Shown: piece by piece, positions 853 to 25,717 of the stretch
How the letters are laid out: each line of letters begins with the position of its first letter
Position numbering within the stretch: position 1 is the stretch's first letter
NCBI RefSeq assembly: GCF_039543225.1
Contig: NZ_BAABJI010000002.1
Location: 1,054,001-1,118,000 of the forward strand
Source of the DNA: Mucilaginibacter defluvii
GTDB lineage: Bacteria; Bacteroidota; Bacteroidia; Sphingobacteriales; Sphingobacteriaceae
DNA: 64,000 nt
Direction of reading: 5' to 3'
Position numbers and translations under genes: made by a program
Notes under the pieces: model-generated
What the model saw: only the letters and a program-made list of their open reading frames with translations
Database searches by the model: none
What the model was told of the DNA's origin: nothing

Positions 853-3018
853 CTACTTAATAGTAAATGTCGCCGTCAATCTTTCGTCAGCCGAATTATT
901 GCCGATGTTTAATGTGTAAGTGCCTGGATATAATTTCCATTTGTTAGCTTTCAAATCCCACTTTTGCAGATCGCTCACCTGTATTTTAATAGTCGCTGTT
1001 TGCTGTCCGCCTTTAGTAACGGTTACGCGTTTAAAGCCTTTTAATTCTTTCAATGGCATGCGCTCTCCCTGCGGATATTTGATGTAAGCCTGCACCACTT
1101 CATCGCCATCCATAGCGCCGGTGTTGGTTACGTTAACCGATACGGTGATTGAATCCTTAGCGCTGTAGCTTTTTTGTGGCTGCGTTTTCCAGTCGAACTT
1201 AAATGAAGTGTAGCTCATACCGAAGCCGAACGGATATTGTACCGGCCCGGTAAAGAAGCGGTAAGTGCGCCCCTTCATGTTGTAATTATCATACGCAGGC
1301 AAATCGTTAACCGACTTGTAGAAGGTTAATGGCAAGTGGCCGGATGGCGAATATTTACCAAACAGTATATCGGCCAACGCGTTCCCCCCCTGCTCGCCTG
1401 GGTACCAGGCCAATATGATGGCATCGGCATAAGGGGCAATCTCGGCAATATCAACATCACTGCCCGAGGTAACTACCGCTATAATGGGCTTGGTTACCTT
1501 TTTACGCAGTTCCTTTAAAAAAGCGATGTTATCTGCCGGGATGCTTAAAGTCTTTTTGTCGCCACCGCTTTCGGATAAGAATGCGTCGCCTGCCTCACCC
1601 TCTAATACCGGGGTTAAACCTACTACGGCTACTGTTACATCGGCATTACCGGCAGCCCATATTCCGCCAAAATGGGTGGTATCTCTATTACCCGATCCTA
1701 AATCGTACTCCACACGCGTAGCCGGACCAACAGCGGCGGTAATACCCTCAACAAAATTTACCATACGGCTGCTTACGCCATGATAGTTAGCTACCAGCGC
1801 ATCTAACGATGCGGCGCTTGATCCAACCACCATAATACTCGAATAGTCTTGCTTATTTAAAGGGAGAATATTCTTATCGTTTTTAAGCAGTACCATACTT
1901 TGCAGCGCGGCCTTGCGGGCTAAAGCTATGTGATAATCATTGTGTACACTATCAGCACCATAACCGGCATAAGGTGAGCTTTTGGCATCATCGTAAAAAC
2001 CAAGTTTGAACTGTGTACGCAGAATTTGCGATAGCGACTCATTTACCTCTTTTTCGGTGATCAGTTTTTTATTGATCGCATTTACAATATCGCTTTGGAA
2101 AATACTGGAACAGTCCAGGTTAGTACCTGCCTTTATTGCTGCCGCCGCTACAGATACTTTATCGGGTAGTACCTTGTGGGTTAAATAAATATCATCCAAC
2201 GCGCCACAATCGGTTACTACGTGGCCTTTAAAGCCCCATTCGCCGCGCAAAATCTGGGTTATGAGTTTTTTATTGGTGGATGTTGGTACACCGTTAACCC
2301 GGTTATAAGCCGTCATAACCGATTCCACACCGGCATCAACCAGTTTATGAAAAGCGTACAGATAGGTTTCGCGCAGATCTTTTTCGTCTACCTTGGCATC
2401 AAAGTAATCGCGTTGCGCCTCGGGGCCGCTGTGTACCGCGAAGTGTTTTGCTGTGGCTGATGTTTTAAGATGTGCCGGATCATTGCCCTGCATACCTTTT
2501 ATGTAAGCGCTGCCGATGGTACCGGTTAAAAACGGATCCTCACCATAGGTTTCTTGTCCCCGCCCCCAACGCGGGTCACGGAAAATATTGATATTGGGCG
2601 ACCAAAAGGTTAAACCCATATACATTAAACGCCTGTTTTGAGCTATTGATAAATTGTATTTAGCTCGTGCCTCGGTTGAAATGGCACCTGCTATTTCATT
2701 TACCAGGTCATCATTAAACGTTGCCGCCATGGCAATAGCCTGCGGAAAAACCGTGGCCTCACCTGCCCTTGCTACACCATGTAAGCTTTCGTTCCACCAG
2801 TTGTAGGCTGGTATACTCAGGCGTGGTACTTCGGCGCTGCGGTAACCCATTAGCGATGCTTTCTCGGGTAAGGTCAATTCAGAGATCAGCGCGTTAACCC
2901 TGGTGTTAACCGGTAATTTTTCGTCCCTGAACTTGGGCTTGTTTTGCGCCTTAACAACGAAGCTGCAGGTACACGCCGCCGCTAATAAAATGCACTTAAT
3001 GTTTGGCTTAATTATCAT
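853..3018 (-). CDS. Glycoside hydrolase family 3, beta-xylosidase/beta-glucosidase type
   Basis: A 721-residue secreted enzyme that removes beta-linked sugars from non-reducing ends. Residues 1-24 form a signal peptide ending KAQ. The GH3 N-terminal barrel carries the KHFAVHSGPE substrate-binding motif (191-200) and the catalytic nucleophile D270 in VVTDCGA; the TDCGA form is typical of the beta-xylosidase clade. The GH3 C-terminal domain follows, and the last ~110 residues are the fibronectin-III-like domain of this family. It is divergent from the GH20 gene, and a LacI-type palindrome lies 14 bp upstream of the start. In this locus it may remove beta-xylose from glycans, but beta-glucosidase activity cannot be excluded. 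Confidence 0.9.
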   Translation of the reverse strand: MIIKPNIKCILLAAACTCSFVVKAQNKPKFRDEKLPVNTRVNALISELTLPEKASLMGYRSAEVPRLSIPAYNWWNESLHGVARAGEATVFPQAIAMAATFNDDLVNEIAGAISTEARAKYNLSIAQNRRLMYMGLTFWSPNINIFRDPRWGRGQETYGEDPFLTGTIGSAYIKGMQGNDPAHLKTSATAKHFAVHSGPEAQRDYFDAKVDEKDLRETYLYAFHKLVDAGVESVMTAYNRVNGVPTSTNKKLITQILRGEWGFKGHVVTDCGALDDIYLTHKVLPDKVSVAAAAIKAGTNLDCSSIFQSDIVNAINKKLITEKEVNESLSQILRTQFKLGFYDDAKSSPYAGYGADSVHNDYHIALARKAALQSMVLLKNDKNILPLNKQDYSSIMVVGSSAASLDALVANYHGVSSRMVNFVEGITAAVGPATRVEYDLGSGNRDTTHFGGIWAAGNADVTVAVVGLTPVLEGEAGDAFLSESGGDKKTLSIPADNIAFLKELRKKVTKPIIAVVTSGSDVDIAEIAPYADAIILAWYPGEQGGNALADILFGKYSPSGHLPLTFYKSVNDLPAYDNYNMKGRTYRFFTGPVQYPFGFGMSYTSFKFDWKTQPQKSYSAKDSITVSVNVTNTGAMDGDEVVQAYIKYPQGERMPLKELKGFKRVTVTKGGQQTATIKIQVSDLQKWDLKANKWKLYPGTYTLNIGNNSADERLTATFTIK

Positions 3019-3031
3019 AGCTTAAATTTAT

Positions 3032-3045
3032 TGCAATCGGTTGCA
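3032..3045. promoter_or_regulatory. LacI-family-type operator in front of the GH3 gene
   Basis: The 14-bp sequence TGCAATCGGTTGCA has perfect TGCAA/TTGCA arms and a central CG, the classic shape of LacI-family operators (TGCAAnCGnTTGCA). It begins 14 bp upstream of the GH3 start codon, where a repressor would block transcription. No LacI-family gene was found in the window, so the regulator must be encoded elsewhere. Confidence 0.55.
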
Positions 3046-3196: not shown

Positions 3197-3247
3197 ATTA
3201 ATTTGCTTTAAGGGCGTGTCTGTTAACCCTATAACCACAAATCTGAA

Positions 3248-5560
3248 ATGATAATAAATAAAACATCAAAATTTTTTATAATCGTAACCATTGCGCTGCT
3301 TGGCATAATAGTGAGTATCTCAACGCTTACTGCCCAAACAACTGCTCCGCAAATTAACCTTATACCCTATCCGCAATCGGTAATTAAAGGTACAGGCATT
3401 TTCACTATTAACAGTAAAACTAAAATAGCGCTGCCTGCGGGTAAGAAATTTTTACCGGAAGCTGAGTTGCTTAACGTGCTTATCACCAATGGATCAGGCA
3501 AGTCGCTGGCTTATGCTCCTGCATCTGCAAATGTAATACAGTTTATTACGGATAATACTATTACTGCTGATGAAGGTTATAAACTAACCGTCACCACGCA
3601 AAAAATAACCTTGGCCGCAAAAACGGCGTCAGGTATATTCAGAGGTGTTGAAACCTTACGCCAATTATTGCCCGACGGTGTTGAACAAACCGGTAAGGCA
3701 ATTACCCTTACCGTGCCCGCGGTAATAATTACCGATCAGCCGGCGTATGCGTGGCGTGGTATGCATTTGGATGTATCCCGTCACTTTTTCTCTGTTGAGT
3801 ATTTGAAGAAGTATATCGATCGCCTGGCCCTCTATAAATTCAACAAGCTGCACTTGCACTTAACAGATGACCAGGGCTGGCGCATCGAGATCAAGAAATA
3901 TCCAAAGCTAACGGAGTTTGGCGCATGGCGCACGTTTAATAACCAGGACTCGGCATGTATCGAAAAATCAAAGGATAACCCTGATTTCGCTATCGACCCG
4001 AAACACATCATCAAACGTAATGGCAAAACGCTTTATGGCGGCTTTTACACCCAGGCGCAAATGAAAGATGTGATTGCCTATGCCATGAAAAGACATATCG
4101 ACATCATCCCCGAAATTGATATGCCGGGGCACATGATGGCGGCTATTAACAACTATCCATTCCTGTCGTGCACAGGCGGCAGCAAATGGGGTGAGCTTTT
4201 TACTACCCCGATATGCCCTTGTAACGAAAGCACCTACGAATTTGCCGAAAACGTTTACAAAGAGATATTCGCGCTGTTTCCGAGCAAGTATATTCACATA
4301 GGAGGCGACGAGGTTGACCGTACCAGTTGGGGCGAATCTGAAGCCTGCAAGGCCATGATGGCCAAAGTGGGACTCAAAACATCGGCCGAACTGCAAAGCT
4401 ATTTCATTAACCGAATGGAGAAATTCTTTAACAGGAATGGCAAAAAACTGATCGGTTGGGATGAGATATTGGAGGATGGCATCAGCTCGACCGCTGTGGT
4501 GATGTACTGGCGCAGTTGGGTGCCTAACGCGCCGATCAAGGCTGCTAAGAATGGCAATAAGGTGATCATGACGCCGGGAAACCCGCTGTATTTTGATAAC
4601 GATCCGGATCAGAACTCGGTTTACAATGTTTACCATTTTAACCCGATACCCGAAAAACTGAACAAACAGGAAGCAGCCAACGTCATTGGCGCACAGGCCA
4701 ACCTGTGGAGCGAGCGCATCCCGACAGAAAACCGTGCGGATTACATGATATTTCCACGCATGACCGCCCTTGCCGAGGTTTTATGGACCAATAAAAAGAA
4801 TTACAAAAGCTACCAGCAACGCTTGCTGAAACAATATCCGCGCTTTGATGCATTGAAGATTCACTACCGCTTACCTGATTTTACGGAGCTGGTTGAAAGC
4901 AACGTATTTACTGATGAAGCCACGCTTAACGTAAGCAAACCGCTACCGGGATTAAAAATATTTTATACTTCCGATGGCTTATTGCCAACGCAGCAGTCAA
5001 CCGAATTGACCGGCCCGTTAAAGATTTCGCAATCGCAAAACATTCGTTTGGTGGCTTATACCGCGTCAGGCGTTCGTGGCGATCTGTATAACTTGAAGTA
5101 TGTAAAGCAACCATTGGCAGAACCGGTGAACAAAACAGGCTTACAGGCAGGTTTGGTGGTGCGTTATTTCCCTGCGTTCTACAAAAAGACTACACTGATA
5201 CCTGACACGGCTAAAAATCAGGCGTTAACAGTGAGTACTGTTACAGTGCCTAAAGAAGCCACCGCGCCAAGCTTTGGACTGAAGTACAGGGGCTATCTTG
5301 ATATCCCAACAGATGGCGTATACACTTTTTATCTGACCTGCGATGATGGCGGCATACTTAAAGTAGCCGACCGCCTGGTAGTTGACAATGAGGCTATGCA
5401 CTCGGCTATTGAAAAAAGCGGACAGGTAGCACTTAAAAAAGGCCTGCAACCCTTTGAGATTAACTTTTTGGAAGGCGGCGGCGGTTACGCCCTAAAGCTG
5501 CTTTACAGTAAGGATGGTTCAACCCCGGCCGAAATACCTGCATCATGGTTAAAACATTAG
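3248..5560 (+). CDS. Beta-N-acetylhexosaminidase, glycoside hydrolase family 20, with PA14 domain
   Basis: A 770-residue secreted exo-enzyme that removes terminal GlcNAc or GalNAc by substrate-assisted catalysis. Residues 1-30 are a signal peptide. The GH20b domain covers about 35-165 and the catalytic barrel about 168-520, with the diagnostic HIGGDE motif containing the D354-E355 pair. About 535-625 is a chitobiase-type C-terminal beta domain (FYTSDG then PTQQSTELTGPL), and about 640-768 resembles a PA14 carbohydrate-binding domain (YRGYLDIPTDGVYTFYL, then DDGG). It is followed after 24 bp by a GH29 fucosidase on the same strand, so the two are probably co-transcribed. Confidence 0.94.
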   Translation: MIINKTSKFFIIVTIALLGIIVSISTLTAQTTAPQINLIPYPQSVIKGTGIFTINSKTKIALPAGKKFLPEAELLNVLITNGSGKSLAYAPASANVIQFITDNTITADEGYKLTVTTQKITLAAKTASGIFRGVETLRQLLPDGVEQTGKAITLTVPAVIITDQPAYAWRGMHLDVSRHFFSVEYLKKYIDRLALYKFNKLHLHLTDDQGWRIEIKKYPKLTEFGAWRTFNNQDSACIEKSKDNPDFAIDPKHIIKRNGKTLYGGFYTQAQMKDVIAYAMKRHIDIIPEIDMPGHMMAAINNYPFLSCTGGSKWGELFTTPICPCNESTYEFAENVYKEIFALFPSKYIHIGGDEVDRTSWGESEACKAMMAKVGLKTSAELQSYFINRMEKFFNRNGKKLIGWDEILEDGISSTAVVMYWRSWVPNAPIKAAKNGNKVIMTPGNPLYFDNDPDQNSVYNVYHFNPIPEKLNKQEAANVIGAQANLWSERIPTENRADYMIFPRMTALAEVLWTNKKNYKSYQQRLLKQYPRFDALKIHYRLPDFTELVESNVFTDEATLNVSKPLPGLKIFYTSDGLLPTQQSTELTGPLKISQSQNIRLVAYTASGVRGDLYNLKYVKQPLAEPVNKTGLQAGLVVRYFPAFYKKTTLIPDTAKNQALTVSTVTVPKEATAPSFGLKYRGYLDIPTDGVYTFYLTCDDGGILKVADRLVVDNEAMHSAIEKSGQVALKKGLQPFEINFLEGGGGYALKLLYSKDGSTPAEIPASWLKH

Positions 5561-5584: not shown

Positions 5585-7690
5585 ATGAAAAAAATAGCCC
5601 TCGCCTCGCTCCTGTTGCAAAGCGCTTTGGCCTTCGGCCAGCCTGCGCCTAAGCCTTACGGTGTAACGCCATCGGCAGCGCAGCTTACCTGGCATAAACT
5701 GGAGATGTATTGTATTGTACATTACGGGGTTGATACGTATACTGATAAAGAATGGGGTTTTGGCAATGAGGACCCGAAGCTGATTAACCCGGCAAAGTTT
5801 GACGCCGTGCAAATAGTACAGGCAGCTAAGGACGGAGGCTTTAAGGGGATTGTTATGGTGGCCAAACACCATGATGGATTGTGCCTGTGGCCTACTAAAA
5901 CCACCGAACACAACATCAGCAAAGCCGCCTGGAAAAATGGCAAGGGCGATATGGTGAAAGAATACCAACTGGCCTGCGAGAAATTGGGTATGCAATTGGG
6001 CTTATACTGCTCGCCCTGGGACAGGAACAATGCCTTTTACGGCAAGCCTGAATACCTGAAGATATACCAGCAGCAGTTGCGCGAGTTATACAGCAACTAT
6101 GGCAAGTTATTTATTTCATGGCATGATGGTGCCAACGGTGGCGACGGCTACTACGGCGGCGCTAACGAGACACGCAAAATAGACCGCACCACTTATTACG
6201 ACTGGCCAAACACCTGGGCCATTACCCGTAAAATGCAGCCCGGAGCAACCTTGTTTGGCGATGTTGGCCCAGATGTGCGTTGGGTAGGCAATGAGGAAGG
6301 CCATGCCGGCGAAACCAGCTGGGCAACCTACACACCAAAACCCTCGCAACCCGGCAAAGAACCGGCTAACGGCGAGGTGCTATATGAATTAGGCATCGAG
6401 GGCACCCGCAACGGCAGATACTGGATGCCTGCAGAGTGTGATGTACCTTTGCGTCCGGGATGGTTTTACCATGCCAGTCAGGATGGGATGGCGAAATCGC
6501 CATATACCCTGCTTGATCTGTATTATAAAAGCGTGGGCCGCGGCGCGGCGCTGGATCTGGGTTTATCGCCAAATCGTGATGGGGTGATAGATGCTGATGA
6601 TGTAGCCAAGCTGAAAGCCTTTGGCGAATTATTGAAACAAACATTCGCGGTTAATCTGGCTAAGGATGCTATAATTACGGCCAGTAATATACGCGGCAAA
6701 AACAGCAAATTGTACGGCACCCAATTCCTGACCGATACTAACCCTTTCTCGTACTGGGCCACGGATGATAAAGTGAATACCCCAATGCTCACCTTGAGCT
6801 TTAAAAAGCTGGTTAGCTTTAATGTGATTCAACTGCGTGAGAATATCAAATTAGGGCAGCGTATTGAAGAAGTGGCTGTTGATGCCTATCAAAATAGTGA
6901 GTGGAAACAGGTAGCTACCGCTACAAGCATAGGCTCAAAACGATTGATACGCTTGCCGCAAAACATTACAGCAAGCAAGGTAAGGCTCCGCATTGTAAAA
7001 TCACCGGTAAGTATTGCGCTAAGCGATTTTGGCTTGTATAAAGAACCCGTGCATGTAACCGCGCCGATTATCAGTAAAACCAGCAGCGGTGAAGTTACCA
7101 TCAGTACCGATGCGCCTGTATCAAACATTTACTACACGCTGGATGGCAGCACCCCAACCAAATCATCCACCCCATACAACAAAACATTTGTTTTGACCAA
7201 GGGCGGCGTTGTTAAGGCTATAGCGGTTGATGGAGGTGTAACCAGCGAAGCCGCTAACGTAAAATTCGGTCTGAATAAAAAAGAATGGAAACTGTTAAAC
7301 GCCGCCAATAACGATGCTGCACAAGCTATAGATGAGAATTACCGCTCGATTTGGAATACTTTACAAAAAGACACTTCGGCAAGCTTCAAACCAACTGAAC
7401 TGGCTGTCGATATGGGCACTGCGCAAACCATCAGCATATTCACTTATCTGACACGACAGGACAAGAAAACTGAGGGTATTGTTGACCGCTATACTTTTTA
7501 TGTGAGCGATAATGGTACCGACTGGAAAGAAGCTGCAAAAGGTGAATTCTCCAACATAAAAGCCAACCCTGTTGAGCAGGAAGTGAAGCTAAGTGCACCT
7601 ATTAAAGCACGTTATTTTAAGTTTCAAGCCGATCATGTGGTCAGCGGGAATGGTGTAGCGATTGCCGAGGTTGGCGTTAGCTCAAAATAA
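5585..7690 (+). CDS. Alpha-L-fucosidase, glycoside hydrolase family 29, multidomain
   Basis: A 701-residue secreted enzyme that removes alpha-L-fucose. Residues 1-19 form a signal peptide ending FGQ. The catalytic barrel (about 25-345) has the family motif AKHHDGLCLWPT (93-104) and the likely nucleophile D181 in SWHDGANG. The WHDGANG context and the overall layout resemble the alpha-1,3/1,4-preferring GH29-B group. Two discoidin-like (F5/8 type C) modules flank a chitobiase-C-like segment (YYTLDGSTPT) in the second half. The last 9 bases overlap the end of the convergent DoxX-like gene. Subfamily and linkage preference are inferred, not shown. Confidence 0.9.
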   Translation: MKKIALASLLLQSALAFGQPAPKPYGVTPSAAQLTWHKLEMYCIVHYGVDTYTDKEWGFGNEDPKLINPAKFDAVQIVQAAKDGGFKGIVMVAKHHDGLCLWPTKTTEHNISKAAWKNGKGDMVKEYQLACEKLGMQLGLYCSPWDRNNAFYGKPEYLKIYQQQLRELYSNYGKLFISWHDGANGGDGYYGGANETRKIDRTTYYDWPNTWAITRKMQPGATLFGDVGPDVRWVGNEEGHAGETSWATYTPKPSQPGKEPANGEVLYELGIEGTRNGRYWMPAECDVPLRPGWFYHASQDGMAKSPYTLLDLYYKSVGRGAALDLGLSPNRDGVIDADDVAKLKAFGELLKQTFAVNLAKDAIITASNIRGKNSKLYGTQFLTDTNPFSYWATDDKVNTPMLTLSFKKLVSFNVIQLRENIKLGQRIEEVAVDAYQNSEWKQVATATSIGSKRLIRLPQNITASKVRLRIVKSPVSIALSDFGLYKEPVHVTAPIISKTSSGEVTISTDAPVSNIYYTLDGSTPTKSSTPYNKTFVLTKGGVVKAIAVDGGVTSEAANVKFGLNKKEWKLLNAANNDAAQAIDENYRSIWNTLQKDTSASFKPTELAVDMGTAQTISIFTYLTRQDKKTEGIVDRYTFYVSDNGTDWKEAAKGEFSNIKANPVEQEVKLSAPIKARYFKFQADHVVSGNGVAIAEVGVSSK

Positions 7691-8524
7691 TTCATCAAGA
7701 TGTAATGACTGTTTTTGTGCGCCGTGTGCTGTTTTGGTATGCGGCGCGCAAATAAACCATAAGGCCAATAAAACACCGTAACTTCCGCCCCTTTCAATCC
7801 ACTCCAAAGCGGCATATTGCGGGTACAAAAGTTCGGTTGCTACTTTCCATATAAAAAACACCAGTAGCAAAGTACGGTTCGGTCTAACTGAAATAAACAC
7901 GGCCGCCGCAATTTCAACAATGCCATTTACCAAAGCCACATTTTCTGCCTGGCGGAAACCCAGCGCATTATATTGCCCAATTAATCCTTTTTTGTGGATC
8001 AGGTTTAACCAACCGTGCCCGGTAAGCAGTAAAAACGCCGCTATGCGTAAAGCTGATTGCACCATCTGCAAACGAGCTACACTAACAGTTACCGGCTGTT
8101 TCATCTTACTAAATAATGATTCAACAGACGGCTCAAATCCGCACAATAAAAGCAATGCCAGCGGCGCGCCGTAATTACCGGCACGTTCAATCATCTCGGC
8201 AAAAGGCTCGCCAGATAATGGGCGCATGGATGCGGTAATTAAACCCCATACAACCAACCAAAGTGTAACTGCACGTGTAGGATAGATCAGTATGCTGATG
8301 CCCATTAAAATATCAACCATACCTACCACAGGCATCAGTTTGTATGCCGTCGCCTCTCCTATCCCGGCTACGGCAAAATAGTTACACCAGATGGGTTTGG
8401 TTATAATGCCAAATGCGCCGTGGCCAATAAAACACATGGCTACGGCGCATTGCAAAATAATATATACCGGCTTTACAGCGCCAGTATTTAAAGCAGGTTT
8501 AAATATGGTTGCCTTTAGCGGCAT
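7682..8524 (-). CDS. DoxX-like integral membrane protein with internal duplication
   Basis: A 280-residue, very hydrophobic protein with about eight predicted membrane segments and no signal for export. It contains two copies of one unit: GHGAFGI (34-40) and IERAGNYGAPLALLLL (112-127) reappear as GHGWLNL (169-175) and IERGGSYGVLLALWFI (243-258), about 131-135 residues later. The unit resembles four-helix DoxX-type proteins, which are often of unknown function. It is the last gene of the minus-strand glycan locus, 16 bp behind the GH92 gene, so it is probably co-expressed with it. Its role there is unknown. Confidence 0.6.
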   Translation of the reverse strand: MPLKATIFKPALNTGAVKPVYIILQCAVAMCFIGHGAFGIITKPIWCNYFAVAGIGEATAYKLMPVVGMVDILMGISILIYPTRAVTLWLVVWGLITASMRPLSGEPFAEMIERAGNYGAPLALLLLCGFEPSVESLFSKMKQPVTVSVARLQMVQSALRIAAFLLLTGHGWLNLIHKKGLIGQYNALGFRQAENVALVNGIVEIAAAVFISVRPNRTLLLVFFIWKVATELLYPQYAALEWIERGGSYGVLLALWFICAPHTKTAHGAQKQSLHLDELF

Positions 8525-10793: not shown

Positions 10794-10843
10794 TTGTTTT
10801 GTTTTGTAGACTATTAAATAGCCCGCCAATTTAGCCCTAATTC

Positions 10844-16213: not shown

Positions 16214-17569
16214 TTATTTACCTTGTTTAATACATGGCTTAACGCCTGCTTCCTTCATCCTGGCTATGATATAGCCGGCTACATTTTTTCCTTGTGTACT
16301 GCCTGTTTCTATACTTTCTATATAATGTATTCCTCCGTAAAATCTCGACATTCCGGCTTCATCAGCTGCCTGGCGGAATGAGTTGAATGATCGTTTTCCG
16401 CTTCCGAAAGGTAGTTCGGTATCATCCTCGTATTTAAAATTATCGCCCAACATATAGGTAAGTACCTCAGCCGATGCTGCTGATACTACCGAATGCCCGC
16501 TGGTATATTCGGGGAATGGCGGCGTTTGTAAAATCGGCTGCCATTTTACATCCATATACCGGTTAATGAATGTTTCGGGCCGGATGCGGTTAGTAGCGAA
16601 TTTTTCTTCCCAACAGGCAATGAACGAGTCCATAAGGGTTAAGCCTTCCAAAGTCAGCAAGCATATTGTTTCATCAAACGTAAGCTTTGCCTGTTTTGAT
16701 ACCAGCGCGGTAATATGCATCCAATGCCCGCCCGGACTTATCTTTTTATACCCGATAGACATATGGCCTGAAGTGGTTATTGCAAACGGGTTACAATCCC
16801 AAAAAAGCGCCTGGTTAATCTGGTCATCAGTCAGTTTTTTTGATACCTGGTAAACCTCTTTCACCTGCTTGTAAAAAGCCGAAGTTGAATCTTTACTAAA
16901 CGGTGTAAGCGGAGCCGGTTTACATTGCGTGGCCGTATCAAGCACCATTGTGCGTATAGTTCGCCAGTTAGGTTCAACCGCCTCAAAATATCCCGGCGGG
17001 GTTGGGTACCAGTAGCCTTCGCCTTGTAACGGCGTATAGCGTTTCAGGGCGCTAAGTTTGTTGTACCTGTCGCCTTTTGAAAAATTAACCGCATCAATTG
17101 CTGCCTGCTGCCCTACCTTTATCGAATTATCGATAACTTCCTGCTTGATACCGGTTTTCTTCACCTGTGTGATGAAAGCGTCCTGATCATCCTTAATCAA
17201 AAATCCTGATGGCAGCATGAGCTTAGCGGTTTCAAGAATACTGTAATAGCTGGCTATGCGGTAATCATAAGCCATTTTTACAGTATCTATACCATGCGTA
17301 GGCGAATAGCTTTTGATCAGTTTATTAAGCAGTGGCACATTATTATCATGCGCGTTAACAATATTATACGCGCCCAGCATACAGTAAGCGTAATAGCGCG
17401 CGGCTACGGGCGGACTAACCACATCGTGTACCATTACCATGCTCACGTTATGCAGCGCGTGCCCCGGCCACATATAATCCGGGAAACTTTTGGCGCGTTG
17501 CTGTGCAAGTCCCGCTACGGCATTAAATAACAGGATAACAAATACTAACCTTTGTAAAATTCTCTTCAT
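16214..17569 (-). CDS. Vanadium-dependent haloperoxidase / PAP2-type acid phosphatase
   Basis: A 451-residue secreted protein with a signal peptide (1-23, ending AGLAQQ). The C-terminal part has all three parts of the vanadate/phosphate-binding signature of the haloperoxidase-PAP2 superfamily: KFATNRIRP (K-x6-RP), YTSGHSVVS and SRFYGGIHY (SR-x5-H). This is an intact active site, for either vanadate-dependent halide oxidation or phosphate-ester hydrolysis; the sequence alone does not decide. It shares one base with the preceding FG-GAP gene (TGATG), so translation is coupled. Such pairs recur next to SusCD systems in Bacteroidota, to my knowledge without an assigned function. Confidence 0.85.
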   Translation of the reverse strand: MKRILQRLVFVILLFNAVAGLAQQRAKSFPDYMWPGHALHNVSMVMVHDVVSPPVAARYYAYCMLGAYNIVNAHDNNVPLLNKLIKSYSPTHGIDTVKMAYDYRIASYYSILETAKLMLPSGFLIKDDQDAFITQVKKTGIKQEVIDNSIKVGQQAAIDAVNFSKGDRYNKLSALKRYTPLQGEGYWYPTPPGYFEAVEPNWRTIRTMVLDTATQCKPAPLTPFSKDSTSAFYKQVKEVYQVSKKLTDDQINQALFWDCNPFAITTSGHMSIGYKKISPGGHWMHITALVSKQAKLTFDETICLLTLEGLTLMDSFIACWEEKFATNRIRPETFINRYMDVKWQPILQTPPFPEYTSGHSVVSAASAEVLTYMLGDNFKYEDDTELPFGSGKRSFNSFRQAADEAGMSRFYGGIHYIESIETGSTQGKNVAGYIIARMKEAGVKPCIKQGK

Positions 17570-20500
17570 CAGTATTTATAAAATTGCAATGGCCCTTCAG
17601 CCGCACCCACCACTAAATATTTATCCTTGCCTGCCTTTATTTGAATAGCCGATTTAACATCGCCGGTTACTGATAAGCCCGACAGCGGTTGTGGTACATA
17701 GCTAAATTTACCCTTGCCGTCGCCTTTCAACAAGGTACCATACCCGGCATCAATACTTCCAAATTTCAGGCGGTTGTTTGAGTGATTACCAAGCAGTAAC
17801 AGGTCGGTATTTTTATCGTTATCGAAATCGCCGGTTAAAATTTGCGTTGTTACCGTAAATTGCGCCTGCACAGGTAAAGCAACAGCCTCAAACTTGCCGC
17901 CGTTGTTTACGAAACAAGTGGTTTCGGTTGTGTTGATGCTGAGCATACTCGCCTTTGATAGTTCCTCAGGCGTGAATATCTCCTTCATTGTAGCATCGGA
18001 GTAGGCGCTATAGGATGCAAACCTGCGGCGCATAGGGTAGATCTGCTCGTTAAGCTCATCACGGCTCACAAACGGATAGCTTTTACCCTGCACGTAGAAA
18101 TTCAGGAAAGGATCAATGGAACCGTTGCCATCAAAGTCAGCATAGTATAATTCAGATGGTTGCTTGTCCGACGCGTTTAGCGGCGAATTAATTCCCATAT
18201 TACCTGCTATGATATCAGGCTTGCCATCACTATTTGCATCGGCAATGGTTAACGACATCCACACACCTTTTTTCGGGGTAGCGAAGTAATCAGCTGTTTT
18301 ATCAACAAAACCACCTGTGGTATTCAGGTACACCATTATCGGCATAAACTCACCGCAAACAACCAGGTCGGCACGTTTATCATTGTTAAGGTCGATCCAT
18401 TGCGCATCTGTTACCATGCCCGGCTTTGCTGATGATGCTACGGTAAATTTACCTTTGCCATCATTTAATAGCCAAAAACTATCCGGCGCGGTTGGATATT
18501 TACCGGGTACTACCCTGCCGCCTACAAACAGGTCAAGGTCGCCATCGTTATCAAAATCATACGGACGAACGCACGATTTGCTGTTTGCCCCGGTTTGCGA
18601 TGGCAATGCGGTTGGCGCCCATGTGAGGCTGCCTTTACCATCGTTAATATAAAGTTCATCCTCCAGGTTACCTGTGTTTGCCTCATAAGTAGCGTAACCG
18701 CCCTTGGCCAGGTATAGGTCAGGGAATTTATCACCATTGGCATCAAAAAAAGCAGCAGCGGCTACTGTACCTATATTTTGATCGTTACCACGTTTTAAAT
18801 CAGTTTCCTTAAACGTACCGCCCTGCTGTTGCAGGTATACTTTGCCTACTGTTGTATTATCGGCACTGCTGATGTAAATATCCTGTAAGCCATCGCCATT
18901 AATATCGGCAGTAACCATAACCGGCGATGTTTTCGAGTACATGAACATCATCAGCAACTGGCGTTTAAAATCATTAATAACCAATGCCTGCTGATTAAAA
19001 TCGACCAGTGGTTTTTGCTTGGTGAATATTGTTTTGGTACTGGTTAATGCTTCTTTAAATGACGCAGTTGAATTCTGCTCAACCTGCAAACGTTGATTAA
19101 CGGCCGGGTTACCAATAACCTGCACCATTTGATCGGGCCAGATAATTTTTATTGAATCCACTTTTTTAGTATCGCCCAAACCAAAATTCAGTATGGTTGA
19201 TGTACTGCTTAAATAGCCCCGGTTAGGATTTACTTCCTGGTATTGGGCGCCTGTTGTACCGTACAAATAAACCTTTGCCCCTACCGCATTTGGGTTTGGC
19301 TTTTTGCCATTGAGTTTAATGGCCAGGTAATTGTTATTCGCAGCGTTACGGGTGTTTTCGTAAATTGATGCTGGCTGATTGATATTGTTTATGATCAGAT
19401 CCAGATCACCATCATTATCCAAATCAGCATAAATAGCTCCGCTTGATATGCTCGTCTCTGTTAAGCCCCATTCCGTTTGCTTATTGCTGAAAGTGAGGTT
19501 GTGGTTATTGCTGAAAATGTAATTAGGCAATTTGGTTGAAGGCATAGCCTTGATCAGCTCCATTAGCAGGAACGGCTCTTTGTTCATGGCTTTTTTGATC
19601 TTGTAATCGCCCCAATAGCGTAAAAAATCCTTGTTGGTGTAATCGCGCAGGTAACCGTTGCTGATGAAGATGTCCTTATAACCATCATTATCAAAATCAG
19701 CTATCAGCGGGCACCAGCTCCAATCGGTAGCGGCCACTCCCGCCATGTTAGCTATTTCACTGAACGTGCCATCGCCATTATTGAGCTGCAGCATGTTGCG
19801 CATATATTGTTTGTAGAGATCCTGCTTAAGCATTAGCTCAAAAGACTCATAATTTTCTTCGAGTTGTAATGATTTTTGCCTGTGGTTATCCTCGGGCAAC
19901 ATATCAAGGGTCAGGATGTCGGGTAAACCATCGTTGTTATAGTCGGCAATATCAACCCCCATCGAGAAATGCGACATATGCCTCAGCATTTTCTTCGATG
20001 CATCGGTAAATGTTTTGTTGTGATTGTTAATGTAAATGTAATCAGGCTCGTTGTAATCATTGGTAACATAAACATCCTGCCAGCCGTCCATATTAATATC
20101 GGCAATGGCAATGCCCAAACCAAACGTCAGCGGATTTTGGATGATACCCGCCTTCGTAGATACATCAGTAAATTTATTGTTATTGTTCTCGAACAGTTTG
20201 TTGCCCGCCAGCATATCCGTTTCGTTTTTATAACGGGCCAGCTCCATGTTATCAATTTTTTTGATATTATGGTTCAGCAAAAACATGTCGAGGTCACCGT
20301 CGTTATCATAGTCAAAAAACGCGGCTTGCGTACTGTAACCCGGGTCGTCGAGGCCGTAAGCGGCTGCTTCTTCCTTAAACTTATTATTGCCCTGGTTGAT
20401 GAAGAGTTGATTACGGCGCTGGTTATTTTCAACCTTGCCTGAGTAGCATACGTAAATATCTAATAGTCCGTCGCCGTTAACATCGGCCATGGTAACGCCT

Positions 20501-20850
20501 GTTTTCCATGAGCCCGACCGGCCGGCCAGTTCCTTGCAGGCATCTTTGGTGATGTCCTTAAATTTCAGTCCGCCTAAATTAAGGTATAATTTATTAGGTT
20601 GCATATTGGCGGTAAACATCAGGTCAGTTAAACCATCGTTGTTGATGTCCCCCGCGGCTACGCCGCCGCCATTGTAAAAGTATTCGTACGAGAGTACGTT
20701 AAGCGATTCTGTTTCATTTATGGCATTTGAAAAAGTAATGCCCGTTTGTTTTGCATCAAGCTGCCTGAATAAAGGCTGCTGCGCAAACACATTAAAAGGT
20801 ACAGCAAATGCCGCCGTAACACACAAAGCGAACGATCTCCACCCGGCCAT
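17569..20850 (-). CDS. FG-GAP (VCBS) repeat protein with ASPIC/UnbV domain, CRTAC1-like
   Basis: A 1093-residue secreted protein (signal peptide 1-23, FNVFAQ). It is built of beta-propeller repeats with calcium-binding loops of the form DxNxDGxxD, such as GDINNDGLTDLMF, ADVNGDGLLDIYV and FDYDNDGDLDMFL; I count about seven before and seven after the middle. An ASPIC/UnbV module lies near residues 510-590 (NPNAVGAKVYLYG, then IKIIWPD). The architecture suggests two propellers for protein-protein or glycan contact outside the cell. It follows susD after a strong hairpin and overlaps the haloperoxidase-like gene by one base. No enzymatic activity is known for the family. Confidence 0.88.
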   Translation of the reverse strand: MAGWRSFALCVTAAFAVPFNVFAQQPLFRQLDAKQTGITFSNAINETESLNVLSYEYFYNGGGVAAGDINNDGLTDLMFTANMQPNKLYLNLGGLKFKDITKDACKELAGRSGSWKTGVTMADVNGDGLLDIYVCYSGKVENNQRRNQLFINQGNNKFKEEAAAYGLDDPGYSTQAAFFDYDNDGDLDMFLLNHNIKKIDNMELARYKNETDMLAGNKLFENNNNKFTDVSTKAGIIQNPLTFGLGIAIADINMDGWQDVYVTNDYNEPDYIYINNHNKTFTDASKKMLRHMSHFSMGVDIADYNNDGLPDILTLDMLPEDNHRQKSLQLEENYESFELMLKQDLYKQYMRNMLQLNNGDGTFSEIANMAGVAATDWSWCPLIADFDNDGYKDIFISNGYLRDYTNKDFLRYWGDYKIKKAMNKEPFLLMELIKAMPSTKLPNYIFSNNHNLTFSNKQTEWGLTETSISSGAIYADLDNDGDLDLIINNINQPASIYENTRNAANNNYLAIKLNGKKPNPNAVGAKVYLYGTTGAQYQEVNPNRGYLSSTSTILNFGLGDTKKVDSIKIIWPDQMVQVIGNPAVNQRLQVEQNSTASFKEALTSTKTIFTKQKPLVDFNQQALVINDFKRQLLMMFMYSKTSPVMVTADINGDGLQDIYISSADNTTVGKVYLQQQGGTFKETDLKRGNDQNIGTVAAAAFFDANGDKFPDLYLAKGGYATYEANTGNLEDELYINDGKGSLTWAPTALPSQTGANSKSCVRPYDFDNDGDLDLFVGGRVVPGKYPTAPDSFWLLNDGKGKFTVASSAKPGMVTDAQWIDLNNDKRADLVVCGEFMPIMVYLNTTGGFVDKTADYFATPKKGVWMSLTIADANSDGKPDIIAGNMGINSPLNASDKQPSELYYADFDGNGSIDPFLNFYVQGKSYPFVSRDELNEQIYPMRRRFASYSAYSDATMKEIFTPEELSKASMLSINTTETTCFVNNGGKFEAVALPVQAQFTVTTQILTGDFDNDKNTDLLLLGNHSNNRLKFGSIDAGYGTLLKGDGKGKFSYVPQPLSGLSVTGDVKSAIQIKAGKDKYLVVGAAEGPLQFYKY

Positions 20851-20880
20851 AATAAACTGAATCGGAAGAAAAAATAAATG

Positions 20881-20936
20881 AGAAAAAAGAATAATTAATA
20901 ATTACAACCCATTTCCGGGTTGTAATTATTAATTAT
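20881..20936 (-). terminator. Strong hairpin with U-tract after susCD
   Basis: A perfect 20-bp stem (20891-20910 with 20917-20936; core GGGTTGTAATTATTAAT) and a 6-base loop lie between susD and the FG-GAP gene. On the minus strand it is followed by TCTTTTTTCT, giving a textbook intrinsic terminator. Since the downstream genes have the same direction, it may act as a partial terminator that keeps susCD transcripts more abundant, or as a 3-prime stabiliser. Confidence 0.85.
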
Positions 20937-20946
20937 AAAAGAAAAG

Positions 20947-22542
20947 TTATTGCTTATCCCACCAAACACGGGTAGCAAAATTATCAGGGCCCTGGCGTTG
21001 AACCGCTGCCTGGTAATTAGCACCATTAGTTTGCAATAATGTGGTTGGGTAAGGCATTCTGCGCGGAACCTGACCTGTGATAAACTGACCTGCATAAGTT
21101 ATCGGCGTTAATACAGGGAAACCTGATCTTCTCCAATTAGCAAATGTTTCGTTGAAGTTGAAGGTAGTTGATGTAACTACATAATATTCCATGTTTATTT
21201 GCTCTAAAGCAGTTGCCGAAACTAACGGGTGCGCAGCAACATACGTTGCGATAGCAGCACTATTAACAGCAGCAGCTCCTGAAGTGTTATATTGAGCAAG
21301 TGAAGCCATGTCCGCAGTTAATGCGTTAGCATAATGTGTAGCTGCAGAACCTGTACTCCAACCCCTTGTGGCAGCCTCGGCTAACAATAGCTCAGATTCG
21401 CCATAAGTATAGATGAAGTTAGCGCTGGTTCTCTCAGCATAAACCTGTAAGCGCGGGCGAGAATATTTGCCTAGGGGTGCAGGAGCATCAGTAGCTGAAG
21501 CGGCCGGAGTAGCACCAGGATAACCGGGAGCATTTGAAATGTCTCTCGAACCACCGGTAGTTACATAGCCATTAGGCATACCCATTTGCAGGCTGTAAGT
21601 AGTTATACCCGGTTTGGTACGGTCCTCATTAGCTGCCTTACCATTACCATCAGTAATTTCGGCAATAGCAGATACACGAGGGTCATTGCTTGATTTCATA
21701 AAATCAATCAATGTTTTACCCCAGCGCACTTCCCTGAAATCATCAGTAACCAATAAAGCGTCAGAATTACTGCTGGTGTTACCATTGGCATCGGTCATTA
21801 CCTTAGCGTTATCAGCAATAGAGCTCATGGTACCGCCTGCATAGGCTTTTTCAGCATATGTTTTAGCAGTAGCAGCGTCAACCTTAGTTAAACGCATTGC
21901 AGCTTTCAACATCAGCGAGTAACCCAAACGTTTCCACTGCGCGATGTTACCGCCGTAGAAAAGATCCGCTGTAGGTGTTGCTTTTGACGCGTCGAGTGCT
22001 GCAGTAGCTTGCTCTAATTGCGACAGGATAGCTCTGTAGATATCTTCTTGCTTGTCAAATACAGGCTCAAAAATGCCATTTTTTGCTTGTGAAGCCTGTG
22101 AATATGGCGCGTCACCATGTAAGTCGGTAACACGTTGTATAAACATTGCCTGTAAGATAGTGGCACAAGCCTCAAGGTTAGCATACTCAGGTTTGTCTTT
22201 TATCAGATTTTTCATCTCATATACCAATGACAATGCCTGATAGCTACGGTTCCAGGTGCGGTTAAAATAACCGGTACCACCACCACCGTATACATATTTA
22301 TCGCCATTGCTGTAGTAGCTGAATGTTGACGCTAATGACTGCATCCACATGCTTTGAAACAGCAACTGATCATATCCGGTTTGTGAAAACGTAATCTGGG
22401 CCTGCGACATCAGGTAATTGGGGTTGATCAACTCATCCGTAAGTTTGTCTGGCTGCGTATTTACCTCTTCAAAATTTTTGGTACAACTTGTTACGAGAGA
22501 AGCTCCCGCTAACAAAAACCCAATAATATATCGTTTTTTCAT
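20947..22542 (-). CDS. SusD/RagB-type outer-membrane glycan-binding lipoprotein
   Basis: A 531-residue surface lipoprotein. The signal peptide ends in a lipobox with the lipidated cysteine C20 (SLVTSC). The text NFEEVNTQPDKLTDELINPNYL and the Trp/Tyr-rich helices around 60-100 match the SusD-like group often annotated as nutrient-binding outer-membrane lipoprotein; TPR-like helices follow. SusD proteins cap the SusC barrel and capture oligosaccharides. The gene follows susC after 4 bp and ends at a strong hairpin. The ligand is inferred only from the neighbouring hydrolases. Confidence 0.93.
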   Translation of the reverse strand: MKKRYIIGFLLAGASLVTSCTKNFEEVNTQPDKLTDELINPNYLMSQAQITFSQTGYDQLLFQSMWMQSLASTFSYYSNGDKYVYGGGGTGYFNRTWNRSYQALSLVYEMKNLIKDKPEYANLEACATILQAMFIQRVTDLHGDAPYSQASQAKNGIFEPVFDKQEDIYRAILSQLEQATAALDASKATPTADLFYGGNIAQWKRLGYSLMLKAAMRLTKVDAATAKTYAEKAYAGGTMSSIADNAKVMTDANGNTSSNSDALLVTDDFREVRWGKTLIDFMKSSNDPRVSAIAEITDGNGKAANEDRTKPGITTYSLQMGMPNGYVTTGGSRDISNAPGYPGATPAASATDAPAPLGKYSRPRLQVYAERTSANFIYTYGESELLLAEAATRGWSTGSAATHYANALTADMASLAQYNTSGAAAVNSAAIATYVAAHPLVSATALEQINMEYYVVTSTTFNFNETFANWRRSGFPVLTPITYAGQFITGQVPRRMPYPTTLLQTNGANYQAAVQRQGPDNFATRVWWDKQ

Positions 22543-22546
22543 CTCG

Positions 22547-25500
22547 TTAGTTTTTGAATTTAAAGTTTACGTTTAAACCATAAGTTCTGGTGAAAGGTAA
22601 GCTGGTACCTTCAATACCGGCATATCTTGGATCAGCAGAGAAGCCTGACTCAGGATCGATGTTTTTGGTCTTTCTCATGATCGTCCAAAGGTTACGGCCT
22701 ACTGCAGAAACACCAATGCTGCTGAACGGAGTACCTCTCAGGAATGCAGCATTAAAGGTATAACCTAAAGTTATCTGGCGCAATTTGATAAAGCTACCAT
22801 CTAATACGGATACCGCACCTACGTTACGTGATAATGCCTGATAGTAAGTTTGTGCAGGAGCAGCCGTGGTGTTTGTAGCACCTGATTCAGTAACACCCTG
22901 ACCAACCACACCGCCTTCACGGCCTTCCAACGTAAGTTTATTTAAACCTCTGAAAATACTTCCGTTTTCAGTAGCTGAAAGCACTTTGTTACCAAAACGG
23001 TAATCAACCAGGAAGCTTAAGTTAAATTGTTTATAGTTGAATGTGTTGTTAAAACCACCGTAAATTTTAGGGATGGTTGAGCCCATAGCTTTCAACTCGC
23101 CGCGTTGTGGCAATCCGTCACCATCATATACGATGTTACCGGCAGCATCACGTTTGTAATCACTGGCCAGAATTTGCGGACCAGCTAAACCAACTACAAG
23201 CGCTGTAATAGCGGTACCTGAACTTGCCGCAGGACGGTAAGTACCAAAGTTTACGTTATTTTCCAAATCATCAGTTGACAGGATCTTGTTCTTAACAAAA
23301 GTAAAGTTGAATGACGGCGTCCAGCTGAAGTCTGATTTTCTTACCGGTGTACCATGAATTTCGACCTCTAAACCACGGTTTTGAGTTGAGCCTGTACCGA
23401 TGTAACGGTTGGTGTAACCGGCCGTCCAGTCAGTTTGAGCATTGATGATCTCATCCTTGGTTTTACGTGAGAAATAAGTAATGTCAAAACCCAATCTGTC
23501 ACCCCAGAATTTCATCTCTAAACCAGCCTCAAGCTCTTGCAATCTGTATGGTTTCAAAAACAAGTTGGGCAACTGGCTGCTGAAACCCGCAGCAGGTATG
23601 CCGTTAATTGAATTGTTCAGATCATAATAAACTGTGTTAGCGTATGGCTTCGCATCAGCGCTTGTTTGCGCATATGATAAACGTACTTTACCTAAATCAA
23701 GGCCATTTATCTGATATAATTCAGAGAAGATAAAGCTACCTGCAACAGATGGCGAGAATATACCGGGACCAACTGATTTAGAAATCGAGCTGTAATAGTC
23801 ATAACGGCCGGTTGTACTCAATACAAAGAAATTCTTGAATGAAAAATCAGCTGAGTAGTACGCAGAATTTACTTGATTAGCAGATAGATCATTATACGGT
23901 CCTGAATCTCTCGTTCTAAAGTTTCTTAAACTATAAAAATATGGGATGATAAATCCATTTTGACCGTTGATATAAGTACCGGTAAGATTTGACTTACGAA
24001 TGTTACCACCAACGCTTAAGTCTAAATCCAACAAGTCTTTAACTAAGTTACGCTTAGCGTTAATTAATACGTCCGCGTTAAACTCTGTAGTTTGCAGGTT
24101 GGTTTGATTCATAGTACCGTTATCGTTACGGTAAGCAGTACCTGTTGGCTCAATATCAACCCTTAAATCGTTACTGTTATCATAACCTAAACGGCCTTGA
24201 ACATATAACCAGTTGGTTAAATCGTACTTTGCAGAAAGTGAAGATATTAAACGATTACGTTTAACATTTTTCTGGAAAAAGTTAGCAGCGAAATATGGGT
24301 TAGTAACATAAGTATCATCCGTAAAGGTTAGCTCCTTACCTCCGGTTGTAGTGCCTGGCGAAAGGGTCTTGATATCTTGATTCGGCGCCAGGAAAAGACC
24401 GTTGTTCGGGTTACCCGGGCCATCGCTCAAACCCGACCTGTTCTTAGAATTCTCGAGTACATAATTAGCTACCACACTAATATTCAACCTTTTGGTAACT
24501 TGCTGGCTACCGTTAAAGTTAAAGGTTTTCCTGTCTAAATAACTGTTTGGTACAATTGAATTGGCACGCAGGTTTGACAGCGATAAACGGAAAGCACCTG
24601 TTTCGTTACCACCGGTAAACGAAGCGGTGTTGGTAAAGCTTGGTGCAGTACGGTAAAAATCAATGTAATTAGATACCGGAGAATACGGATGCATTTTACC
24701 GTCGATCTGCATTACATCAGATCCATCCATTCTGGTACCCCAGGCAAGGCTACCTGATAAACGGGCCGCATCAAGTGTAGTAGGTTTTACTCCTTGTATA
24801 CCCTGACCATAAACTTGCTGGAAATCGGTATTATCAACCGCTTTATCAAACTGAACGTTGCTATTAAATTCAATACCAAACTGAGAGTTCTTTTTACCCG
24901 ATTTGGTAGTAATTAAAATTACACCGTTGGATGCACGTGTACCATATAGAGCCGAAGCGGTCTGTCCTTTCAATACAGTCATTGATTCGATATCGTCAGA
25001 GTTGATGTTTGAGATACCATCGCCATAGTCGGCACCGCCCCACTCGCCAGACTGGCCTCTTTGTGTATTATCCATCGGCACACCGTTGATAACATAAAGC
25101 GGGCCGCCTGCGGTAAAGCTGGTTAAACCGCGCAATAATACCCTCGCTGATGAACCCGGACCACCGTTTGAACCGCCTACACTTAAACCGGCAACGCGGC
25201 CTTGTAATGATAAAGCAACGTTGGTTTCCTTAGCTTTGTTTAAAGCCTCGCCATTTACCGTTGTTACAGCGTAACCCAGTTTCTTTTGTTCTTTAGTGAT
25301 ACCTAAAGCGGTTACAACAACCTCTTTAAGGTCTGTTTGCGATGGCTGTAAAGTTACATTAATAACTGTTTTACCTGCTACGGCTACCTCTTGAGATTGG
25401 TAACCTATAAATGAGAATACCAGCGTACCGTTATCTGGCGCGTTGATAGAGAATTTACCTGAAGCATCAGTAACGGTGCCTGCGGTTGAGCCTTTAACGG

Positions 25501-25717
25501 CTACAGATACACCCGGAAGCGGAGCTCCTTTTTCATCAACCACCCTACCGGTAACGGCTACAGGGGCTATTGTTTTTTTAACTGATACCGGCGCCGCTGC
25601 AACAGTGTTGCTGAAATTGGTTGCGGCCACGGCTAACATAGAGAACTTAAAAATTAATGAGGCTTTTTTTAGCCAGTACTTATCCCTTACACCCGATGGA
25701 TGTTCAAAATATTTCAT
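22547..25717 (-). CDS. SusC/RagA-type TonB-dependent outer-membrane transporter
   Basis: A 1056-residue TonB-dependent transporter. After an N-terminal signal region (to about 43, VAAAP) comes a carboxypeptidase-regulatory-like domain (about 55-135, GRVVDEKGAPLPGVSVAVKG), then a TonB box-like segment (DLKEVVVTALG), the plug (about 145-260) and a C-terminal barrel ending in FKFKN. There is no STN domain, so it should not signal to an anti-sigma factor; regulation is more likely by the ROK protein. It imports oligosaccharides captured by the SusD protein. It is the first gene of the minus-strand run that reaches to 7.7 kb. Confidence 0.95.
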   Translation of the reverse strand: MKYFEHPSGVRDKYWLKKASLIFKFSMLAVAATNFSNTVAAAPVSVKKTIAPVAVTGRVVDEKGAPLPGVSVAVKGSTAGTVTDASGKFSINAPDNGTLVFSFIGYQSQEVAVAGKTVINVTLQPSQTDLKEVVVTALGITKEQKKLGYAVTTVNGEALNKAKETNVALSLQGRVAGLSVGGSNGGPGSSARVLLRGLTSFTAGGPLYVINGVPMDNTQRGQSGEWGGADYGDGISNINSDDIESMTVLKGQTASALYGTRASNGVILITTKSGKKNSQFGIEFNSNVQFDKAVDNTDFQQVYGQGIQGVKPTTLDAARLSGSLAWGTRMDGSDVMQIDGKMHPYSPVSNYIDFYRTAPSFTNTASFTGGNETGAFRLSLSNLRANSIVPNSYLDRKTFNFNGSQQVTKRLNISVVANYVLENSKNRSGLSDGPGNPNNGLFLAPNQDIKTLSPGTTTGGKELTFTDDTYVTNPYFAANFFQKNVKRNRLISSLSAKYDLTNWLYVQGRLGYDNSNDLRVDIEPTGTAYRNDNGTMNQTNLQTTEFNADVLINAKRNLVKDLLDLDLSVGGNIRKSNLTGTYINGQNGFIIPYFYSLRNFRTRDSGPYNDLSANQVNSAYYSADFSFKNFFVLSTTGRYDYYSSISKSVGPGIFSPSVAGSFIFSELYQINGLDLGKVRLSYAQTSADAKPYANTVYYDLNNSINGIPAAGFSSQLPNLFLKPYRLQELEAGLEMKFWGDRLGFDITYFSRKTKDEIINAQTDWTAGYTNRYIGTGSTQNRGLEVEIHGTPVRKSDFSWTPSFNFTFVKNKILSTDDLENNVNFGTYRPAASSGTAITALVVGLAGPQILASDYKRDAAGNIVYDGDGLPQRGELKAMGSTIPKIYGGFNNTFNYKQFNLSFLVDYRFGNKVLSATENGSIFRGLNKLTLEGREGGVVGQGVTESGATNTTAAPAQTYYQALSRNVGAVSVLDGSFIKLRQITLGYTFNAAFLRGTPFSSIGVSAVGRNLWTIMRKTKNIDPESGFSADPRYAGIEGTSLPFTRTYGLNVNFKFKN

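Follow-up and report, generated by a model that had tools for sequence, protein, structure and literature searches.

Which glycan is the target of the 12-gene block at positions 853 to 25717 of a 64,000-nucleotide stretch of the Mucilaginibacter defluvii genome (C2:1054001-1118000, here called the window)? The block combines a SusC/SusD pair with genes predicted to encode glycoside hydrolases (GHs) of families GH92, GH2, GH20, GH3, and GH29, the last represented by two genes, GH29-A and GH29-B. We interpret it as a polysaccharide utilization locus for N-glycans, most likely those with the plant or invertebrate type of core (alpha-1,3-fucose and perhaps beta-1,2-xylose), with a probability of roughly 70%. 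The N-glycan target, already proposed in a sequence-only reading of the window, is supported mainly because a glycosylasparaginase gene lies near the GH2 gene in relatives and additionally by the GH29 and GH92 evidence. The plant-type target from the same reading is supported in part, because the GH29-A clade and residues of the GH92 +1 lid argue for it and the clade of the GH3 argues against it. Statements attributed below to PMC9522356, PMC10154615, and PMC12243196 refer to excerpts of those papers.

Conserved neighborhood of the GH2 gene

Orthologs of the window GH2 (E ≤ 1e-120) were present in 40 of 151 family genomes, spread over 10 of the 25 genera. Neighborhoods around the GH2 gene were compared for 30 of these 40 genomes, as a rule over 38 kilobases (kb); those of G061 and G037 were shortened by contig ends. 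In addition to the 30, those of G014, G095, and G126 were covered in part. With ortholog identity thresholds of our own choosing (GH92, ≥56%; GH29-A, ≥48%), the partners found were GH92 (16 of 30 neighborhoods), GH29-A (12), GH20 (9), and SusC, SusD, and UnbV (8 each), and because these genes recur near GH2 in relatives, the gene set of the locus is more than a chance assembly. GH3 genes of the window type occurred in 7 neighborhoods, GH125 in 3, NagB in 4, and a gene pair encoding GHL10-like and CBM9 proteins in 5.

Glycosylasparaginase is the enzyme that cuts N-acetylglucosamine (GlcNAc) off asparagine, and its substrate, GlcNAc-Asn, derives from N-glycoproteins. A glycosylasparaginase gene with an adjoining CutC gene lay inside the GH2 neighborhood of six of the 30 genomes (G044, G111, G031, G066, G118, and G055), which represent five genera; by our own estimate, which takes a 38-kb stretch of a genome of about 4.8 Mb with a single copy and disregards ancestry, chance would place it there in about 0.24 of 30. 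The glycosylasparaginase of the window genome (L275, C1 at about position 1154588) matched solved glycosylasparaginases at 5e-126 and, judged by eye, opens with a twin-arginine-like signal.

Predicted fucosidases and mannosidase

The window GH29-A fell within a 31-row tree clade (support, 100/100) together with L285 of Phocaeicola massiliensis and GH29s from Bacteroidales plant-type GH92 loci. The Bacteroidales rows of this clade came from 14 loci around GH92s resembling chain 7zgm, and a PNGase gene was found in the fetched stretch of 9 of the 14. These rows were drawn from GH92 neighborhoods, and the GH29 set of P. massiliensis served as an unbiased control. That genome was found through its plant N-glycan GH92 (100% match, L118), which is directly preceded by a PNGase gene; among its seven GH29 hits only L285, directly after a SusC/SusD pair, was inside the clade. 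The window GH29-A was also closest to L285, about 11 kb from the P. massiliensis GH92, at 47% versus at most 39% for the other GH29s of that genome. The GH29 tree contains no rows with masked letters and none of 380 residues or fewer, a limit that excluded the broken copy of P. vulgatus; this tree and that of GH3 both carry a program warning of long branches meeting.

The core alpha-1,3-fucosidase B035DRAFT_02132 is described as part of a SusC/SusD-GH29 locus and as lacking an obvious homolog in B. vulgatus (PMC9522356). The GH29 in the plant N-glycan locus of Phocaeicola vulgatus ATCC 8482 (L259/L121) contains an in-frame TGA, which would explain why no such homolog was seen. Judged by the SusC/SusD-GH29 layout, L285 may be B035DRAFT_02132, but L302 also has SusC/SusD neighbors. 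GH29-A is the better candidate for a core fucosidase; GH29-B was considered for this role and rejected, the clade evidence belonging to GH29-A instead. The closest chains to GH29-B were 8ayr, 5k9h, and 4zrx and the alpha-1,3/4-fucosidases 3mo4/3ues, and we take it to be of the B type (alpha-1,3/4). It would fit antennary fucose better, with a role on Lewis-a suggested by established knowledge. The pairing of GH29-B with a GH3 xylosidase, offered in the sequence-only reading as the sign of a plant target, is a poor argument: the GH29 of plant-type loci corresponds to GH29-A, and the GH3 is closer to the xylan-type Xyl3A.

The closest solved chains to the window GH92 were 6f8z (BT3130) and 7zgm, a plant N-glycan alpha-1,3-mannosidase. 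The +1 lid positions Y72, W178, W209, and H530 (numbering of B035DRAFT_03340, from the Bacteroidales plant N-glycan system) were compared in 16 rows, the window and 15 orthologs; the ortholog of G036, cut by the end of its stretch, was left out. Tryptophan was found at position 72 in 16 rows, at 178 in 13 (with three gaps), and at 209 in 16, and histidine was found at 530 in 16. The window GH92 itself has the lid of B035DRAFT_03340, with an aromatic residue at 72 (Trp for Tyr) and W178, W209, and H530 kept; E532 and S533 are not conserved. The +1 lid set is missing from all seven other GH92s of the window genome, and YWWHES stands at the lid positions in 64 of 80 Bacteroidales GH92s. Assignment of the window GH92 as an alpha-1,2-mannosidase was rejected: it lacks the His-Glu stretch of both alpha-1,2 chains in the alignment, and the H-E pair of its SIHERGDY aligns elsewhere.

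GH3 enzyme and alternative targets

A number of observations weigh against a plant-type N-glycan locus that ends in glycosylasparaginase. In the tree, the window GH3 was sister to the xylan-context Xyl3A and fell outside the 19-row clade that holds the proven beta-1,2-xylosidase. No glycosylasparaginase was found in 24 of the 30 GH2 neighborhoods, nor in the covered parts of those of G014, G095, and G126, and in the window genome this gene and GH125 are both far from the cluster. GH2 occurs without any of the glycan-enzyme partners listed above nearby in G101, G015, G063, G019, and G052. In Bacteroidales loci with PNGase (L163, L166, L168, and L169), there are also second GH29s that do not belong to the clade of the window GH29-A. 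Finally, N-glycans could instead be released by a GH18 that carries a motif of the DxxDxDxE type and whose gene lies elsewhere in the genome.

The best NCBIfam match of the window GH3 was Xyl3A (752 bits, below the cutoff of 1250), and it was 34% identical to the B035DRAFT_00995-type GH3, whose clade is represented in the Bacteroidales plant N-glycan system. Two distant GH3s of L283, the near-duplicate L120, and the duplicate L281 were left out of the tree, and on the basis of this tree, ordinary membership of the window GH3 in the beta-1,2-xylosidase clade was rejected. L278 was taken as B035DRAFT_00995 from its neighbors (GH2, sulfatase, and AraC) and its identity with the GH3 of P. vulgatus, which was 75.6% here and is 75% in print (PMC9522356). 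A GH3 of the proven clade (54.5 to 57.3% identity with the N-glycan GH3 of P. vulgatus) was found in the GH2 neighborhoods of G004, G029, G031, G066, and G055; the window-type GH3 (E ≤ 1e-140) was absent from these five genomes, and none of the 30 neighborhoods holds both types. Among genomes of the genus, the window-type GH3 (≥64%) was present in 14 of 14 with the GH2 and in 1 of 5 without it (Fisher test, P = 0.0013, not corrected for ancestry). These distributions suggest that the window GH3 may be a replacement with the same role, and removal of beta-1,2-xylose from plant N-glycans is proposed for it from its neighborhood.

The strongest competing explanation has the locus act on N-glycans of invertebrates (insects or nematodes) or on generic complex ones, with the GH3 serving something else. 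Core alpha-1,3-fucose is common to plants and insects (PMC9522356), and besides its clade, the GH3 favors this explanation by its location: among the 14 genus genomes with both genes, GH3 and GH2 are within 25 kb in 9 and far apart or on different contigs in 5. The cooccurrence with GH2 in the genus argues the other way, as does the placement of GH3 beside GH29-B, away from the GH2 cluster, in three of six fetched places where GH3 is apart from GH2 (G101, G072, and G116; L286, L289, and L294), although not in G014, G051, and G084. In the near relative G082 (L104:8563-10389), a GH35 beta-galactosidase gene between GH3 and GH20 would fit Lewis-a antennae, although it is missing from the window and from the nearest relative, G126. 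We consider this explanation unlikely and prefer the plant-type N-glycan target.

That the block is a plant cell wall locus of the xylan type, with the GH3 as a beta-1,4-xylosidase, is far less probable still. Xyl3A is the nearest characterized type to the GH3, and the sister-clade row L282 (Xyl3A type) lies between GH43 genes; the locus itself contains no GH43 or GH10 gene, and the linkage of glycosylasparaginase to GH2 does not fit a xylan locus. GH92, GH20, the two GH29s, and the GH2 enzyme (assigned below to subfamily GH2_17) are not known to have a role in xylan. A fungal alpha-mannan or high-mannose N-glycan locus is equally improbable: the locus has a GH92, GH125 is near GH2 in three of the 30 relatives, and a Salegentibacter GH76 operon holds GH92, GH2, GH125, and GH43 (PMC10154615), but an alpha-1,2-type GH92 or a GH76 was not found among the locus genes, the genome's own GH76 has no near relative in the 30 neighborhoods (BLASTP), and two fucosidases and a GH20 would have no use there.

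GH2 enzyme

The best full-length match of the window GH2 was CsxA of subfamily GH2_16 (2e-67); matches to beta-mannosidases were weaker, with the best stretch mostly in the first half only. In the window GH2, NE replaces SD, and a Trp stands at the position of CsxA Glu394. Among the GH2s of the 30 relatives, R-x-W-G-G was found in 30 and W-x-G-[GN]-N-E in 28 (strict pattern). SD and Glu are the marks of GH2_16, and Trp is that of GH2_13 and GH2_17, the mannosidase subfamilies (PMC12243196). In the same source, GH2_13 is the closest relative of GH2_14 and the group divides into GH2_15 and two pairs, from which it follows that GH2_16 pairs with GH2_17. A pocket open on the side of C6 is also reported there for GH2_17. 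Given NE, Trp, and the full-length match to GH2_16, the window GH2 fits GH2_17, the subfamily of endo-beta-mannosidases, an assignment made by published residue rules and not by direct comparison with GH2_17 sequences. The exo-glucosaminidase type (GH2_16), named along with beta-mannosidase in the sequence-only reading, was rejected because the SD motif and Glu394 are absent.

Endo cleavage of mannose (Man)-beta-1,4-GlcNAc is predicted for this enzyme, and exo action once GH125 has acted is no less possible, since GH125 is near GH2 in the three relatives and is encoded elsewhere in the window genome. The excerpt of the 2022 gut-pathway paper reports no enzyme for alpha-1,6-mannose (PMC9522356); a GH38 of B. 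longum had been described by 2023 (PMC10154615). A bacterial endo-beta-mannosidase would bypass alpha-1,6-mannose. The three characterized GH2_17 enzymes are all from plants, with none from the large bacterial majority, according to the excerpt of PMC12243196, and the locus would offer a bacterial GH2_17-like enzyme with a likely natural substrate to test.

Release step and proposed route

The sequence-only reading had noted that the window lacks PNGase, GH18, and GH130 and had suggested looking for release enzymes near the locus. The observation stands, and the search, run genome-wide, yielded no such enzyme near the locus: no PNGase was detected, and both GH18 and both GH130 places are outside the window. 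PNGase (PF09112) was detected in 0 of 19 family genomes, including that of the window, in 3 of 3 Bacteroidales controls, and in 0 of 14 standard control genomes; the Group 2 PNGase of the Bacteroidales plant N-glycan system (Crouch 2022) thus has no counterpart detected in the window genome. A 563-residue gene of G035 was rejected as a PNGase candidate, its sequence start reading as an S41-type peptidase. One GH18 place is a glycosyltransferase/deacetylase/GH18 fusion, and the other is a 451-residue GH18 adjoining a GH76 (L117:9178-11769, C2 at about 285 kb). The latter contains DGIDFDDE, which fits the DxxDxDxE motif, and shows weak similarity to the EndoS TIM barrel, below the Pfam cutoff; it is a candidate endo-beta-N-acetylglucosaminidase. 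In the 30 GH2 neighborhoods, BLASTP, the only method used, detected no near relative of this GH18, its GH76 neighbor, or the P. massiliensis PNGase. Synteny in relatives is the reason that glycosylasparaginase is favored, though unproven, as the last step. As of 2023, release of N-glycans from glycoproteins is described for PNGases, GH18, and GH85 only, and activity on plant N-glycans for neither a GH18 nor a GH85, in the excerpt of PMC10154615. A locus linked to glycosylasparaginase and lacking PNGase suggests another way of N-glycan release.

We infer the enzyme activities, the order of steps, their location, and induction of the locus from these data. SusC/SusD, perhaps with the FG-GAP/UnbV protein, would import N-glycopeptides; this function and a periplasmic location of the enzymes are drawn from established knowledge. 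Periplasmic exo-enzymes would then strip fucose (GH29-B) and GlcNAc (GH20) from the antennae and alpha-1,3-mannose (GH92) and xylose (GH3) from the core. The GH2_17-like enzyme would cut Man-beta-1,4-GlcNAc, either releasing Man-alpha-1,6-Man whole or acting after removal of alpha-1,6-mannose by GH125, and removal of the last GlcNAc from asparagine would fall to glycosylasparaginase, whose gene is elsewhere in the genome, and not to a PNGase. In its most specific form, a lysosome-like plant N-glycan route free of PNGase and endoglycosidase, in which exo-enzymes, a bacterial GH2_17 releasing Man-alpha-1,6-Man, a final cut by glycosylasparaginase, and an Xyl3A-derived GH3 acting as beta-1,2-xylosidase are combined, the proposal is tentative and more doubtful than the N-glycan reading as a whole. 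The locus would also extend plant N-glycan use to a further bacterial family.

Comparison with known systems

The cluster resembles, but does not match, the known N-glycan system of gut bacteria. With the plant N-glycan loci of Phocaeicola (Bacteroides) massiliensis/vulgatus (Crouch 2022, PMC9522356), it shares SusC/SusD, an alpha-1,3-type GH92 with most of the lid residues, a GH29 of the same clade as L285, and a GH3. It differs from them in lacking PNGase, in having a GH3 of another clade, in encoding a GH2_17-like enzyme in place of a GH2 beta-1,3-galactosidase, in forming one block where P. massiliensis has three loci (PMC9522356), and in adding ROK regulator, UnbV, and PAP2 genes. Plant endo-beta-mannosidases of GH2_17 share the NE motif, the Trp in place of the usual His, and domains of the GH2_16/17 type, likened by description and not by sequence; the window GH2, in contrast, is bacterial, has a signal-like start, and lies in an N-glycan locus, and no bacterial member is characterized according to the excerpt of PMC12243196. 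The layout of the window locus was not found in print in the open-license literature, to which all literature searches here refer.

Another point of comparison is the Nix cluster of Xanthomonas campestris (Dupoiron 2015). This cluster reportedly has GH3, GH20, and GH2 members and also includes GH125, which is elsewhere in the window genome. Its GH92, specific for core alpha-1,3-mannose, and its GH29, active on core alpha-1,3-fucose (PMC10154615), have proposed counterparts in the window, the comparison being by description and not by sequence.

Layout of the locus and other observations

The genes form a single block (Table 1). Every gene named in the sequence-only reading is present and belongs to its Pfam family above the cutoff; that list had left out the ROK regulator, PAP2/haloperoxidase-like, and FG-GAP/UnbV genes. 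Nine minus-strand genes, from SusC (25717) to the DoxX-like gene (7682), are separated by gaps of ≤96 bp, with two overlaps, an arrangement as in an operon. GH20 and GH29-B form a plus-strand pair, from which GH3 diverges. The SusC/SusD pair adjoins the carbohydrate-active enzyme genes, the gene content by which polysaccharide utilization loci are recognized.

Table 1. Predicted genes of the block, with positions in the window
Feature	Position	Strand	Evidence
GH3, Xyl3A-like	853..3018	-	Pfam PF00933, PF01915, PF14310; best NCBIfam match Xyl3A
GH20 beta-hexosaminidase with PA14; proposed to remove antennary GlcNAc	3248..5560	+	PF00728 E 1e-115
GH29 of B type with Fn3-like and F5/8 C domains (GH29-B); proposed antennary Lewis-a fucose removal	5585..7690	+	Pfam
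DoxX-like membrane protein, last gene of operon	7682..8524	-	PF13781 below cutoff
GH92; proposed xylose-tolerating alpha-1,3-mannosidase	8541..10829	-	PF07971 E 9e-184; best chains; lid residues
GH2 fitting subfamily GH2_17 (endo-beta-mannosidase)	10844..13513	-	NE motif, Trp, Ig_GlcNase domain
GH29 of A type (GH29-A); proposed core alpha-1,3-fucosidase	13538..14986	-	PF01120 E 1e-99; tree clade
ROK/NagC-type regulator	14973..16196	-	PF00480; best NCBIfam model NagC, below cutoff
PAP2/haloperoxidase-like protein	16214..17569	-	PF01569
FG-GAP/UnbV repeat protein, possible surface glycan binder	17569..20850	-	PF13517, PF07593
SusD-like protein (SusD-like_2), lipoprotein-like start by sight	20947..22542	-	PF12771
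SusC-like TonB-dependent transporter	22547..25717	-	PF07715, PF13715

The SusC-SusD-UnbV-haloperoxidase-like cassette (16214-25717) is conserved in 7 of the 30 neighborhoods, and its PAP2/haloperoxidase-like member is unexpected in a glycan locus. CutC, named for copper homeostasis, adjoins glycosylasparaginase in the window genome (L275:663-2466), as it does in each of the six relatives in which the latter was found near GH2, and may have a role in N-glycan catabolism. No literature was found that joins CutC with glycosylasparaginase, aspartylglucosaminidase with polysaccharide utilization, or UnbV with SusC/SusD. The GHL10-like and CBM9 gene pair (L056:6293-8526) also occurs in the Bacteroidales GH92 loci L163, L166, L168, L169, and L173, four of these five with PNGase, and is possibly an unrecognized N-glycan module.

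Directly upstream of the window are SusC/SusD, GH32, sugar transporter, PfkB kinase, and hybrid two-component sensor genes, with mnmE between them and the window edge, and a gene with an AMP-binding domain follows the block downstream. With a separate locus upstream and the AMP-binding gene downstream, the borders drawn in the sequence-only reading look right. The upstream locus (L002:3-13166), which also includes DUF2961, is a probable fructan locus. At the start of C1 (L107:6073-12851), GH92, a GH5 with a ricin-B lectin domain, GH125, and GH76 lie together, perhaps as a fungal mannan locus.

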